Shown: positions 3,065 to 52,082 of the stretch, one piece after another
Numbering within the stretch: the stretch's first letter is position 1
How the letters are laid out: every line of letters begins with the position of its first letter
NCBI RefSeq assembly: GCF_004362045.1
Contig: NZ_SNWX01000003.1
Coordinates: forward strand, 62,001 to 126,000
Direction: 5' to 3'
Length of the DNA: 64,000 bases
Source: Halanaerobium saccharolyticum
GTDB taxonomy: Bacteria > Bacillota > Halanaerobiia > Halanaerobiales > Halanaerobiaceae
Translations under genes and position numbers: made by a program
The notes under the pieces: generated by a model
What the model saw: the letters and a program-made list of their open reading frames with translations, nothing else
Database searches by the model: none
What the model was told of the DNA's origin: nothing

Positions 3065-4108
3065 ATGATTGAAGTTATTATTTACCTATCCAGCGGTCTC
3101 TTTTTAGGCTGGTCCCTGGGAGCCAATGATGCAGCCAATATTTTTGGAACAGCAGTTGGCAGTAAAATGGTTAAATTTTCAACTGCAGCTTTAATTATGA
3201 CGATTTTTGTGATTCTAGGTTCAGTAGTTAGTGGAGCTGGAGCTTCTCATACTCTGGGAGCTTTAGGCCAGGTGGGAACACTACCTGCAGCCTTTGTTGT
3301 GGCCTTTGCAGCAGCAGTTGCAGTTTACTGGATGACTAAATTAGGTCTGCCAGTTTCAACCTCTCATTCAATTGTTGGGGGAATTATCGGCTGGAATCTT
3401 TATTCAGGTCTGGCTACAGATTTAGGAGTATTACGAGAAATTGTAGGTGCCTGGATATTTTCACCTGTTTTATCAGCTTTTTTTGCAGTAGTTTTATATT
3501 TCATCTTTAAAAAGTGGTTAAATAATGCAAAAATACATCTGCTGCATCTTGATTTTTATACAAGGTGGGGATTATTAATTGTAGGCGCTTTTGGAGCTTA
3601 TTCTCTGGGAGCCAATAACATAGCCAATGTGATGGGAGTTTTTATCGGAATTATGGAGATCCCTGCTTATAATATTGGTTTTCTAACATTTAGTGGTGCC
3701 CAGCAGCTGTTTTTACTTGGTGGTATTGCAATATCTGTAGGAGTTGTGAGCTATTCTAAAAAGGTGATGCTTACTGTCGGTACCAATATAATGGATATTT
3801 CTCCTATTGGTGCTTTTATAGTTGTGCTTGCCAGTTCTACCACTCTCTTTATTTTTGCTTCTGCTGCCCTGAAAAACTTTTTGATAATGCTGGGTTTGCC
3901 TTCTTTACCACTGGTTCCGGTTTCGAGTTCACAGGCGGTGGTCGGTGCTGTTCTGGGTCTGGGAATTGCTAAAGGAGGAAGAAATATTAATTTTAAACTG
4001 CTCGGTAAAATTGGAGTTGGCTGGATATTAACCCCAATTACAGCGGCAGTTATTTCCTTTATTTTATTATTTTTTATGCAGAATGTTTTTATCAGATCAG
4101 TGGTTTAA
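3065..4108 (+). CDS. pit: PiT-family inorganic phosphate transporter
   Basis: A 347-residue membrane protein with about ten transmembrane helices. The family's duplicated signature is present in both halves: GANDAANIFGTAVGS near residue 20 and GANNIANVMGV near residue 180, with the paired PVSTSHS and PVSSSQA segments. PiT carriers import metal-phosphate complexes with protons or sodium; in a halophile sodium coupling is plausible but not shown. It is cotranscribed with the DUF47 protein. There is no obvious PhoB box. Confidence 0.92.
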   Translation: MIEVIIYLSSGLFLGWSLGANDAANIFGTAVGSKMVKFSTAALIMTIFVILGSVVSGAGASHTLGALGQVGTLPAAFVVAFAAAVAVYWMTKLGLPVSTSHSIVGGIIGWNLYSGLATDLGVLREIVGAWIFSPVLSAFFAVVLYFIFKKWLNNAKIHLLHLDFYTRWGLLIVGAFGAYSLGANNIANVMGVFIGIMEIPAYNIGFLTFSGAQQLFLLGGIAISVGVVSYSKKVMLTVGTNIMDISPIGAFIVVLASSTTLFIFASAALKNFLIMLGLPSLPLVPVSSSQAVVGAVLGLGIAKGGRNINFKLLGKIGVGWILTPITAAVISFILLFFMQNVFIRSVV

Positions 4109-4200
4109 AAATCATAGAAATAGAATGCTGATTTTAATATTAACTTAAATTTAATAATTAAAGTCTGAACAAGAAAATCAGGATTTAAAGAGGTGGTTAA

Positions 4201-5544
4201 ATGTTTGAAGGAATTCAAATTGAAAATTATATAGCTATTTTAATAGACAAAATTGAAAATAGTTTTTTAGTCTGGTCTAATTTATTTGAACTGCTGCTTT
4301 TTTTATTTTTATTAGTAGCTACTTATTTTTTAACTAAATTATTATATAAACATGTTGATCAACTGCTTGATAAAATTGAGGCCTTAAATGAGAGAAAAAG
4401 GTTTAGAATAATTGATCAATTGTTATATCCTTTAATTTTAATGATTCTGGTTGGTATTTATTATGTTATTGCTGCTTCTTTTAATCTGCCAAGTGTAATT
4501 ATCAGTATTGCTGGTAATTTAGTATCGGCCTGGCTGATAGTTAAGGCTCTAACCCTATTTTTTCCACGCAATAGGATGTTTCGTTTTCTTTCCGCTTTTA
4601 TCTGGATAATTGCAGCCTTAAGGATACTTAATATTTATCAGGAGACACTTAATTTGTTAGATAGTTTAGCTTTTAACAGCGGCAACCTGAGAATTTCGTT
4701 ATTATTAATTATAAAGACAGTAATGATCTTTAGCATTTTATTCTGGCTGGCTGGAAAATTAAGTCGGTTGGTGACAAAGAGAATTGATAGTAGTGATGAT
4801 TTGACACCTTCTATAAAAGTTTTACTAAATAAGATAGCTAAATTTTTAATTTTTACTTCTGCAATCTTATTTACTTTAAGTGGAGTTGGTGTTGATTTAA
4901 GCGCCTTTGCGTTTCTCGGTGGTGCTATTGGTGTTGGGTTAGGTTTTGGACTGCAGAAAATCGTCTCTAATTTTATCAGTGGAATTATTATTCTGGCAGA
5001 TAAATCAATTAAACCTGGTGATGTGGTAGAAATAGGAGATGTCTATGGCTGGGTTCGAAAACTGGATACTCGTTTTGTTTCGGTAGTAACTCGTTCCGGT
5101 AAAGAATTCTTAATTCCGAATGAAGACTTTATAACAAAACAAGTAATTAACTGGTCCTATAGTGATGAACTGGTCCGAGTTGAGGCAAAAGTAGGAGTTT
5201 CTTATAGTAGTGATTTAAGATTGGTGCAGGAACTAATGATGCAGTCTATTACAGAAAAGGAAAGAATTTTAACAGATCCGGCCCCAAATGTGCTTTTGAT
5301 TGAGTTTGGCGACAGCTCTGTTAATTTTGAGCTCCGTTTCTGGATCAGTGATCCCCGAAATGGGATTCAGAATGTCCGCAGTCAGGTACTGCTTTCTATC
5401 TGGGATAGTTTTAAAGAAAATAATGTTGAAATTCCATTTCCACAGCGAGATTATCACTTAAAATCTCTGCCTGATGATTTAAGTAATTTTTTAAATCAAA
5501 ATAAAGAACTTAACTCAGAAGATAAAGAAAGGAATAATAATTAG
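4201..5544 (+). CDS. MscS-family mechanosensitive ion channel
   Basis: A 447-residue inner-membrane channel expected to open on hypo-osmotic shock, a useful safety valve for a halophile. Several N-terminal transmembrane helices precede the Gly/Ala-rich MscS pore helix (GGAIGVGLGFGLQKIVSNF, about residues 238-256), then the beta domain (KPGDVVEIGDVYGWV) and the cytoplasmic alpha/beta vestibule ending in IPFPQRDYHL, a typical family ending. The C-terminal tail is short and hydrophilic. AAGAGGTGG precedes the ATG. The 92-base gap upstream holds no clear promoter. Confidence 0.92.
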   Translation: MFEGIQIENYIAILIDKIENSFLVWSNLFELLLFLFLLVATYFLTKLLYKHVDQLLDKIEALNERKRFRIIDQLLYPLILMILVGIYYVIAASFNLPSVIISIAGNLVSAWLIVKALTLFFPRNRMFRFLSAFIWIIAALRILNIYQETLNLLDSLAFNSGNLRISLLLIIKTVMIFSILFWLAGKLSRLVTKRIDSSDDLTPSIKVLLNKIAKFLIFTSAILFTLSGVGVDLSAFAFLGGAIGVGLGFGLQKIVSNFISGIIILADKSIKPGDVVEIGDVYGWVRKLDTRFVSVVTRSGKEFLIPNEDFITKQVINWSYSDELVRVEAKVGVSYSSDLRLVQELMMQSITEKERILTDPAPNVLLIEFGDSSVNFELRFWISDPRNGIQNVRSQVLLSIWDSFKENNVEIPFPQRDYHLKSLPDDLSNFLNQNKELNSEDKERNNN

Positions 5545-48796: not shown

Positions 48797-50569
48797 TTAC
48801 TCAACCTTGAATTTAGAAATCATATTTTTAAGATTATCTGACATCTCTGACAATCTGTGAGCCGCAGATACAATTTCTTCAGTTGAAGCAATCTGTTCTT
48901 CACTGGAGGCTGCAACTTCTTCAGCATTGCTGGCAGCTTCATCACTAACAGCGGCAACATTATTGATCATATTATCAACATTCTCACTTATATCTGCCAT
49001 CTGCATAGTTTCGCTATCTATTTCTTTGATCAAACTGCTCAGTTGAGTAACTGCACCTTCAATGTTTTTAAATACTTCACCGGTGTCTTCAATAACCTCA
49101 ACACTGCTATTTACAGCAGATTCGGTTCCATCCATTTTTTGAACTGCATTATTAACACCAGCCTGAATTTTATCAATTAATTTAGAAATATTATCGGTAG
49201 CAGCTGCTGATTCTTCAGCCAGCTGTCTGATCTCATCAGCAACAACTGAAAATCCTCGTCCGGCCTCACCTGCTCTGGCAGCCTCTATAGCAGCATTCAG
49301 GGCCAGTAAGTTTGTCTGCTGTGATATATTATTGATTAATTGAACAATATCTCCAATTTCTTCTGATAAATCTCCCAGATTATTAATGGTAACTCCAATT
49401 TCTGCAGAATTATCTTTTACCTGATTGACCTGCTTAATTGAGCTTTCCATTGATTCAGTTCCTGTTTTAACATTTTCAATAACCTGAGTAGAGGATTGGT
49501 CCATATCTTTAGATTTTTTGCGAGTTGTTTCAATTTGGTTAATTAACTGACTGACATTTTTACTTGTTTCAGAAATTTGTGCCGATTGTTCTTCAGCTCC
49601 AGAAGCAACATTTTCGATTGCTCCACCAACCTGTTCGGCAGCTCTTTCTACTTCCTGACCAGATGCTGCTAGCTCCTCACTTTGAGCACTTAATTCACTA
49701 ATTTCCATCTGGATTTCAGCAATCATTTTTTTCTGTGATTCAGCAGTTTTGTTATAGGCCTGAGCCAGTTTTCCAATTTCATCATCACTTTTTATATCCA
49801 TTCTGTAAGTTAAATCTCCAGCAGCCATTTTATTCATACCAGTTAAAACCTGATTGATATTTTTTGAAATATAGCGGGAAATGAAGTAAATGATAAGAGT
49901 AAAAATAACTGCAGCGATTAATAAGAAAATAATTAAGGCAGTAGACATATTGCCAATAATAGCTGCCAATTCACTTCTTACCCCATTTACCTGACTATTA
50001 ATTATTCCCTCATAAGTCCCAGCACCTATAAAATAGTCTGTACCTGCAATTGGAGCTACATAACTAATTTTATTTTCGGGTTCACCGGTCTCTGGGTTAG
50101 CATAAATATAATCAACAAAGCCACCACCATTTTTGGCTGTTTCTGCCAGGGAGCGAATTATATACTTACCATTAGCATCCTGGAGATCCCACCTATTGCT
50201 GCCCACAATTTCTGGAGAGGGAGGAAGAGAAATAGTATTCCCCTTATTATCATAAATGAAAAAATATCCTAATTCACCAAAACCTACATCCTGATTATAA
50301 TTTCGGATAAGCTCCTCCAAATTTTGTTCACTTAATTCACTATTTGAAATACTTAATTCTCCCAAAAATTGGGAAGCTGTTTCTGTAGAATTTTTAATTC
50401 TCTTTTTTTCTAAATCCAGCAGATAGCTGCTGACTGTTTGTGTGTTTTCCTCGCGTAAAGTGTTAAACTGTTGATTGAAAAAATACCCCATAATCAATAC
50501 TAAAATCAAAAAACTAAGCCCAATTACTAAAAATATTTTCTTAGCAATATTTAAATTTTTAAATCCCAT
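48797..50569 (-). CDS. Methyl-accepting chemotaxis protein with single Cache sensor
   Basis: A 590-residue chemoreceptor. TM1 spans about 12-32; the extracytoplasmic domain (about 33-190) shows the sCache_2 pattern ([39 protein letters not shown]); TM2 about 205-230; HAMP about 230-285; then the signalling coiled coil with the tip [20 protein letters not shown] near 415. It ends without a CheR-tether pentapeptide. Small organic acids are typical ligands of this sensor class, which is family knowledge and not shown here. GGAGG precedes the ATG. Confidence 0.92.
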
Positions 50570-50826
50570 TAAATTTCCTCCCTGTTTTGATTAATAATGC
50601 GAAAATTGTTGAAAAAAGTAAAACTTTGCTTAATTATATCATATAAATTTTTTATTTAAAGTTAAATATAAAACCTTTATAAATATGAAATGCTTTTTTT
50701 GATCGAATTTGTAAAAAAAGTTAGAGTTTAGTTTTTTTAACTAATCTGGCTGAAAAAAGAAGAATTAAGTTCTTTGTTCTAGAAATAAATGCTTAAAGTA
50801 ATCATAATTATACTGGAGGCAAGAAA
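50570..50826. other. Divergent intergenic region, no clear feature
   Basis: 257 AT-rich bases between the chemoreceptor and the pyrophosphatase-like gene. ACTGGAGG (before 50827) is the RBS of the plus-strand gene. No convincing promoter pair or operator is visible. Confidence 0.4.
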
Positions 50827-51120
50827 ATGAGTGATAACTTAATTGATGTTTTGGTAGAAATACCAAAGGGTAGCAACAACAAGTATGAGTATGATAAGGA
50901 AAAAGATAAGTTTCGACTGGATAGAGTTATGTATTCACCAGTTTATTATCCTGCTGATTATGTATATTTAGAGGAACATCTGCTCAAAGAATACGAGCAT
51001 TTCTTTTCTGTGTATAAGAATTTAGAAAAAAAGATAAACATTATCGGCTGGGCTGGAATAGAAGAGGCACTGCAGGTAATTGAAGAATCAAAAGCAGCTT
51101 ATCAAAAAAATGATAAATAA
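50827..51120 (+). CDS. Internally deleted family I inorganic pyrophosphatase-like protein
   Basis: A 97-residue protein. Residues 6-43 match the N-terminus of family I pyrophosphatases (VEIPKGSNNKYEYDKEKDKF, DRVMYSPVYYPADY), and residues about 50-90 match their C-terminus (LLKEYEHFFSVYKNLEKKIN, GWAGIEEAL). The central block of about 75 residues, with the DGDPxD motif and the other metal-binding Asp residues, is missing, so it cannot hydrolyse pyrophosphate in the normal way. The frame is open and has a good RBS (TGGAGG) and terminator, so it may be expressed. It is either a remnant that kept its frame or a repurposed small protein. Confidence 0.75.
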   Translation: MSDNLIDVLVEIPKGSNNKYEYDKEKDKFRLDRVMYSPVYYPADYVYLEEHLLKEYEHFFSVYKNLEKKINIIGWAGIEEALQVIEESKAAYQKNDK

Positions 51121-51134
51121 TTTTTAAAAAAGTA

Positions 51135-51169
51135 AAAGTCCCAGGGACTTTAAATCCCGGGACTTTTTA
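51135..51169. terminator. Terminator between the pyrophosphatase-like gene and the small protein
   Basis: AAAGTCCCAGGGA pairs with TCCCGGGACTTTTT around an AT loop. Its near-symmetry suits both strands. Confidence 0.85.
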
Positions 51170-51191: not shown

Positions 51192-51278
51192 CTAGTTATT
51201 TTTTGAAACATATAATTCAGCTAACTGTGGTATCATTACTATACCTACCATTAGTGCTGATATTAGTAAATCTCTCAT
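51192..51278 (-). CDS. 28-residue putative membrane peptide
   Basis: The ATG (51276-51278, minus strand) is preceded by AAGGAGG at eight bases and by a strong promoter (TTGACA 51360-51355, 16 bases, TATAAT 51338-51333). The peptide starts MRDLLISALMVGIVMIPQLA and ends in a hydrophilic tail with two Asn. It reads as one transmembrane helix. Peptides of this form include subunits of membrane complexes and type I toxins; nothing decides between these. It is convergent with the pyrophosphatase-like gene and shares its terminator. Confidence 0.6.
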   Translation of the reverse strand: MRDLLISALMVGIVMIPQLAELYVSKNN

Positions 51279-51413: not shown

Positions 51414-52082
51414 CTAGGTATATGACTTAATTTTCTCAGGTTGGTAAATATTAATTTTTTTACGGGAAGTTTTAATGAGGCCTTCACTTTCAAATTTTCC
51501 TAAAACTCTGGAAACAGTTTCTCTACTGCTGCCGATCATACTGGCCAGTTCTTGCTGAGTTAAAGAGATGTCCAAAACGACTTTATTCTTTTTCTTTTTT
51601 CCATATTTTTCAGCCAGAAAGATTAACAGTCCAGCCACTCTGGCAGAGCTATCTTTTAGAGCCAGATCTCTAACATTTTGCTGGGCCCGGCGTAAACGTC
51701 CACTCATTTCCCGGAGTAGTTTAATTCCAATTGATGGATGCTTTAAGATTAAATTTTCCAATTCTGACTGGTCAAAAACAATAACTTCAGTATCAGTCAT
51801 AGTAACTGCAGAAGCCGGGTAATTACCCTTATCAAAAGCGATGATTTCTGCAATGATATCATTATTACTAAAAATATTTAAAATCTGTTCATCTCCGTTT
51901 TTAATCATCTTAGTCAGTTTTACCTGACCCTCTCTGATAATAAAAAATTTGTCACCAGATTCACCTTCAAAAAAGATATATTCTCCTTTCTGGAATTCTT
52001 TTTCAGCGGCAATCTTATCAATTAAATTTAATTCTTCTTCTGTCAGCAAACTAAAAAAAGGTATTTCTTTAACTACACTCAT
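51414..52082 (-). CDS. Crp/Fnr-family transcriptional regulator (HcpR-like by context)
   Basis: A 222-residue regulator. Residues about 5-115 form the cyclic-nucleotide-binding-like beta roll, but the phosphate-binding cassette is degenerate (AEIIAFDKGNYPASA, no Arg at the cAMP-phosphate position), and there is not one Cys, so it is neither a normal Crp nor an Fe-S Fnr. Residues about 145-222 are the Crp helix-turn-helix, with Arg187-Glu188-x3-Arg192 in SRETVSR, the pattern that reads TGTGA in E. coli Crp. Boxes of that kind precede hcp, the hemerythrin operon and the operon at 52417. An NO-sensing, possibly haem-binding, role like HcpR is inference. Confidence 0.88.
   Translation of the reverse strand: MSVVKEIPFFSLLTEEELNLIDKIAAEKEFQKGEYIFFEGESGDKFFIIREGQVKLTKMIKNGDEQILNIFSNNDIIAEIIAFDKGNYPASAVTMTDTEVIVFDQSELENLILKHPSIGIKLLREMSGRLRRAQQNVRDLALKDSSARVAGLLIFLAEKYGKKKKNKVVLDISLTQQELASMIGSSRETVSRVLGKFESEGLIKTSRKKINIYQPEKIKSYT

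Follow-up and report, generated by a model that had tools for sequence, protein, structure and literature searches.

The window, by which we mean the whole 64,000-nucleotide stretch of Halanaerobium saccharolyticum DNA that was analysed (contig NZ_SNWX01000003.1, positions 62,001 to 126,000), belongs to a genome of 3.36 Mb. Between two genes read from the minus strand, it holds on the plus strand a short open reading frame (ORF) that starts with ATG, encodes 97 residues and is related to the soluble family I inorganic pyrophosphatases. The features of the locus, in window coordinates, are the following.

48797 to 50569, minus strand: left flank, a 590-aa protein of the methyl-accepting chemotaxis (MCP) type, recognized by eye and through its similarity to a PF00015 protein; used as a locus anchor
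50815 to 50819, plus strand: GGAGG, a likely ribosome-binding site (RBS), from the sequence
50827 to 51120, plus strand: family I pyrophosphatase ORF lacking 66 core codons, from the ORF listing, the PF00719 profile and comparison with relatives
50962 to 50964, plus strand: codon 46, GTA (Val), where all 23 full-length relatives and the sister strain MSL 17.2 have Gly
50968 to 50976, plus strand: the LEE codons TTA GAG GAA that form the deletion junction, from comparison with full-length relatives
51025 to 51036, plus strand: hinge, LEKKI against LEEKEV in the alignment with relatives, one codon fewer
51134 to 51167, plus strand: terminator-like hairpin with a T run, from folding
51414 to 52082, minus strand: right flank, a 222-aa CRP/FNR-type regulator, recognized by inspection; used as a locus anchor

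The encoded protein matches the family I profile PF00719 in two stretches (E 1.3e-20) with 74.2 bits, which passes the curated cut-off of 23.5, and in a six-frame search of its own genome profile positions 1-40 directly adjoin positions 107-153, so that positions of about 41-106 are missing from the complete domain (1-153). A sequence search of the PDB returned 37 distinct matches, all of them named pyrophosphatases except one labelled only APC40078. With the family the ORF shares its N-terminal 50 and C-terminal 47 residues as well as its locus, which is that of the full-length genes (162-163 aa) of three relatives, whereas it differs from the family in that 66 core residues, conserved Asp residues among them, are missing and an invariant Gly is replaced by Val. 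The original prediction of an in-frame pyrophosphatase without its catalytic centre is thereby confirmed, its estimate of about 75 lost residues being somewhat high: relative to the full-length genes the gap measures 66 codons (198 bp), running from LEE codons 48-50 to LEE codons 114-116, and the hinge is shorter by another codon (aligned with 15 full-length relatives of those fetched).

Conservation was counted in 23 full-length relatives, which remained of 33 after duplicates and one protein of 140 aa had been dropped. Among them 31 columns are invariant or all-but-one invariant; 18 of these are kept in the short form, and 13 (T51, D55, D57, L59, D60, V63, T65, G72, D87, D92, K94, V98, and D102) were removed. 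The conserved core formed by D55, D57, D60, D87, D92, K94, and D102 thus lies entirely within the deleted part, and its Asp residues are those that we take, from the E. coli and yeast enzymes, to bind metal and act in catalysis. The earlier statement that all catalytic Asp residues are gone accordingly stands as regards the loss of D55, D57, D60, D87, D92, and D102, their catalytic role being background knowledge. Judged from its sequence, the 97-residue product should not hydrolyse PPi by the family I mechanism. Active-site Asp residues of the yeast pyrophosphatase are named in a review (PMC11210485).

Around the ORF, the signals described at the outset as intact are recognizable in part. The GGAGG stands, as does a hairpin of 13 pairs followed by T's (-17.7 kcal/mol, z -2.75), to which a similar sequence, compared as sequence only and without folding, is present in MSL 17.2; a terminator scan near this hairpin listed a site on the minus strand only and none on the plus strand. 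Promoter-like matches across the region are at chance level, with 7 found against 5.4 expected.

Downstream, on the minus strand, a separate 28-aa hydrophobic ORF (MRDLLISALMVGIVMIPQLAELYVSKNN, 51195-51278) is preceded by AGGAGG and has its own 12/12 match to TTGACA-16-TATAAT at 51360-51333. It is kept at the same position in L022, L023, and L024 (identified below) at 61-89% identity and shortened in the sister strain, and it has no convincing match at the loci of the genus genomes G007, G008, and G011.

The locus was compared with that of four relatives: the sister H. saccharolyticum MSL 17.2 (L021), H. saccharolyticum WC1 (L022), H. kushneri (L023), and a Halanaerobium metagenome-assembled genome (L024). 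Trees of the FNR-type regulator, and of this regulator plus the MCP, place the window and MSL 17.2 as sisters with a support of 1.0; WC1, despite its species name, is not the nearest relative of MSL 17.2. The window and MSL 17.2 have in common the order MCP (-), pyrophosphatase (+), FNR-type regulator (-), and in WC1, H. kushneri, and the metagenome-assembled genome a full-length pyrophosphatase lies at the same place between the same flanking genes, preceded by an additional gene of 280-285 aa that combines a Rossmann-like N-terminus (PF01408, 2.8e-6) with an MCP signalling domain (PF00015, 1.8e-24):

L022:3073-3930 (also in L023 and L024): Rossmann/MCP-domain gene beside the pyrophosphatase, from profile matches

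A fossil of about 23 codons of this gene remains in MSL 17.2, and an orthologue was not found in the window genome, which has lost the gene and where the best match (37%) is to MCP paralogues; matches lying elsewhere than at the locus, for the most part to MCP domains with 25-45% identity, were taken to be paralogues. For the regulator, the match in L024:4618-5004 (-), or G002:C242:13520-13981, covers only residues 68-221 (the C-terminal 154 codons).

MSL 17.2 has the same 198-bp junction as the window; in addition it lacks a base at codons 9-10 and is truncated at the 3' end, into the terminator region. This frameshift and truncation, which disrupt the frame in the sister only and have no counterpart in the window copy, mean that the sister copy is dead. 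Because its genome was assembled independently, the junction is unlikely to be an assembly artefact. Full-length genes at the locus in relatives that lack the short form are what the original prediction had regarded as pointing to decay; three relatives have such full-length genes, and the short form, which it had suggested looking for in relatives, does recur in the sister, as a dead copy.

Within the genus, 12 genomes were searched. Five have a full-length family I enzyme (G002, G004, G006, G009, and G010, the gene of G006 and G010 lying far from the FNR-type regulator or on another contig), and two have the cut form (G000 and G003, the latter apparently the genome of MSL 17.2). In the other five (G001, which is 75% complete, G005, G007, G008, and G011) no family I pyrophosphatase was found; the gap between MCP and FNR genes is only 149-158 bp in G007, G008, and G011, with no recognizable pyrophosphatase in it, and in the 5-kb stretch taken from G005 the FNR gene alone was found. 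Across the phylum, the short protein matched relatives in 69 of 398 genomes, a set to which that of MSL 17.2 does not belong, and a contiguous match over residues 1-97 was found in its own genome only. Three other matches lie in open frames shorter than 130 aa, all of them one-sided: 57 aa in G013, 67 aa in G152, and 85 aa in G116, the last at a contig end.

The sequence at the junction suggests how the core may have been lost. The stretch ATTTAGAAGA occurs three times in the WC1 gene, each time encoding an in-frame LEE, and two of its copies are 198 bp apart. Two in-frame LEE stretches at this distance are likewise present in H. kushneri and in the metagenome-assembled genome, and one copy remains in the window. 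As the two stretches are in phase, a deletion between them leaves the frame open whatever selection does, and the open frame of the window is by itself no evidence of selection. RecA-independent deletions between short direct repeats do occur in E. coli, according to a published account (PMC5426353). We infer a course of events in which an ancestor carried a full-length soluble family I gene at this locus, slippage or annealing between the LEE-encoding stretches would have taken the catalytic core out, and the frame would have stayed open through the geometry of the repeats; the loss would have been tolerated because an ion-pumping membrane pyrophosphatase elsewhere in the genome could dispose of PPi, and the sister genome would have made the same deletion, most likely independently, before decaying further. 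Recurrence at just this repeat pair is not strongly predicted: WC1 alone has a perfect 10-mer at the cut, the pair being imperfect in the other two relatives, and a longer match, of 12 exact bases in WC1 and in the metagenome-assembled genome, exists between the first copy and the third, which lie 252 bp apart. The case resembles bacterial pseudogenes formed by deletion between short direct repeats, in that a short repeat (10 bp in WC1) bounds the cut, relatives keep the full-length gene and the sister has decayed further, whereas it differs from them in that the frame is still open, the repeats being in phase, and in that the same deletion probably occurred twice.

How the retained codons have evolved was examined by counting substitutions between the window and MSL 17.2, the codon-level analysis that had been proposed at the outset. 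Over 66 comparable codons (hinge codons 68-70 being omitted for the alignment gap and codon 10 for the base missing in the sister), there are 13 synonymous (S) and 3 nonsynonymous (N) differences, with a dS of 0.50, a dN of 0.019, and a dN/dS of about 0.04. By site counts, about 82% of differences should be nonsynonymous under neutrality, and the observed 3 of 16 has a p of 7e-8 (3e-5 for an expectation of only 70%); the retained codons have thus been under purifying selection across this divergence. The full-length genes of WC1 and H. kushneri differ at the same codons by 2 N and 24 S, so that constraint between the short forms is not detectably weaker (Fisher p 0.35). The dS of the ORF falls among those of neighbouring genes (0.19-0.52 in six genes, 0.48 and 0.52 in the two adjoining ones). 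By comparison, the 23 codons of the fossil of the 285-aa gene in MSL 17.2 show 5 amino acid differences from WC1, while 22 codons compared between WC1 and H. kushneri show 1.

Assigned to branches, the differences are 0 N and 6 S in MSL 17.2 and 3 N and 5 S in the window (codon 9 included), with 2 S placed on neither; when the hinge is counted in, the window branch gains about 2 N and the loss of one codon, and stands at 5 N to 5 S. The two branches do not differ significantly (Fisher p 0.21). A two-phase estimate puts the neutral fraction of the window branch at 0.12-0.31, depending on the assumptions and with support intervals within 0.01-0.71, and that of the sister branch at 0.00, with an upper limit of 0.07-0.11. 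The 3' part of the window gene differs by 1 N and 8 S from H. kushneri, by 6 N and 8 S from WC1, and by 6 N and 9 S from the metagenome-assembled genome; this part is loosely constrained in any case, with 7.5 N and 8.5 S even between the full-length genes of WC1 and H. kushneri. Taken together, the excess of synonymous changes and the drifted neighbour fossil indicate constraint on the pyrophosphatase codons over the greater part of the period after the two lineages split. If function ceased with the deletion, the cut must have been made twice at one site, each time late in its branch; a cut made only once would mean that the short form itself was constrained.

The interpretation turns on this choice. 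An identical junction in two sister genomes normally means one ancestral deletion, and the simplest account would then be that both copies have decayed neutrally ever since the common ancestor of the two lineages; we hold that account to be very improbable, given that most differences are synonymous, that a dS of 0.50 represents time enough to drift, and that the neighbour fossil in the sister locus did drift. The substitution counts lead us to reject it, and only a wrong alignment or a very unusual mutation bias could rescue it. The single junction would also be explained if the deletion allele had moved between the lineages by recombination. Synonymous differences at codons 48, 49, and 53 flank the junction on both sides, which would reduce the transferred tract to about a dozen bases, and the dS lies in the span seen for neighbouring genes; divergence right up to the junction thus makes such a transfer highly unlikely.

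There remains a single deletion whose product was selected in both lineages, repurposed perhaps for binding or regulation, and was later lost in MSL 17.2. The shared junction, the intact frame of the window, and the strength of the constraint favour it, and several points count against a relic: with one deletion, 13 S to 3 N would make the short form useful, the window has kept its RBS along with its frame, its branch was not neutral throughout, and three indels with 0 nonsynonymous changes are an odd mix for a drifting sister copy. We nevertheless regard it as unlikely. The constraint resembles that of the full enzyme, down to conserved residues for which a protein without the core should have no use, the only other cut copy found is dead, Gly46 has become Val and the hinge codon has gone in the window, and the phylum search brought up no further contiguous short form. 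The structure model suggested at the outset gave low confidence: AlphaFold2, applied to the short form alone, reached a mean pLDDT of 54.8 from the single sequence and 43.3 with a 16-row alignment, so that no confident fold is predicted, which is weak evidence against repurposing. A separate full-length family I enzyme, which the original prediction had envisaged as a possible partner, is absent, as the six-frame search of the window's own genome gave no further PF00719 match at E <= 0.001; the role of such a partner was rejected on this ground. The idea of a repurposed sensor or partner is therefore not supported; purifying selection on the retained codons leaves it some probability, and repurposing of the short form appears unlikely. 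That the core deletion created a 97-residue protein held under purifying selection in two Halanaerobium lineages, one of which later lost it, seems to us quite improbable.

We prefer the reading in which the full enzyme persisted until recently in the two lineages, which then made the same deletion independently, because the constraint is like that of the full enzyme (extending to conserved residues useless without the core), because the three codons of the junction themselves contain two of the synonymous differences between window and sister, which could stem from different crossover points, and because the sister copy is dead. This preference is a judgement, not a proof. On balance, the ORF is probably a young loss-of-function relic, presumably without present function, of a soluble family I pyrophosphatase, shortened by a deletion between repeats, with a membrane enzyme making the loss tolerable. 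The young deletion that the original prediction had offered as its second option draws support from the full-length orthologues at the locus in three relatives, the further damage behind the same cut in the sister, the other species without the gene, and the membrane pyrophosphatase of the genus.

The membrane pyrophosphatase (H_PPase, PF03030) was found as a 654-aa open frame in each of the 12 genus genomes, the window's own included. It catalyses the same reaction as the lost enzyme and is encoded full-length in the same genome, but it is not related to that enzyme, being an ion pump integral to the membrane and encoded at another locus. These 12 frames could offer redundancy for loss of the soluble enzyme, and their presence makes the membrane enzyme a likely functional replacement for it in Halanaerobium. 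According to a published report (PMC9959109), the membrane pyrophosphatase of R. rubrum complements the essential soluble enzyme of E. coli. Replacement by a family II pyrophosphatase was rejected, PF02833 being absent from all 12 genus genomes.

An in-frame "mini-enzyme" can thus arise by accident from the geometry of repeats that are in phase, and without further evidence such a short ORF should be annotated neither as a pyrophosphatase nor as a new regulator. The relic is ordinary in kind, its modest twist being that the same deletion probably occurred twice. It offers a small, clean case in which an enzyme essential to E. coli has been lost repeatedly, within a genus with a membrane pyrophosphatase in all genomes searched and with a deletion that may have arisen twice.

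Several partial forms came to light elsewhere. In G013, from another genus of the same family, a stretch of 43 codons (L113:2923-3051) resembles the 3' end of a family I gene, and a search of the vicinity gave no N-terminal part; this is apparently one more loss that occurred independently. G036 (L017; positions 66-153, frame of 108 aa), G057 (L019; positions 31-113, 117 aa), and G025 (L020; positions 28-111, 284 aa) have partial PF00719 matches, which may be truncated or divergent forms, or contig ends. Halanaerobium polyolivorans (L025) has its full-length pyrophosphatase at a different locus, near an 873-aa protein that by eye resembles pyruvate phosphate dikinase; the two genes lie at 314-2935 and 4001-4486.
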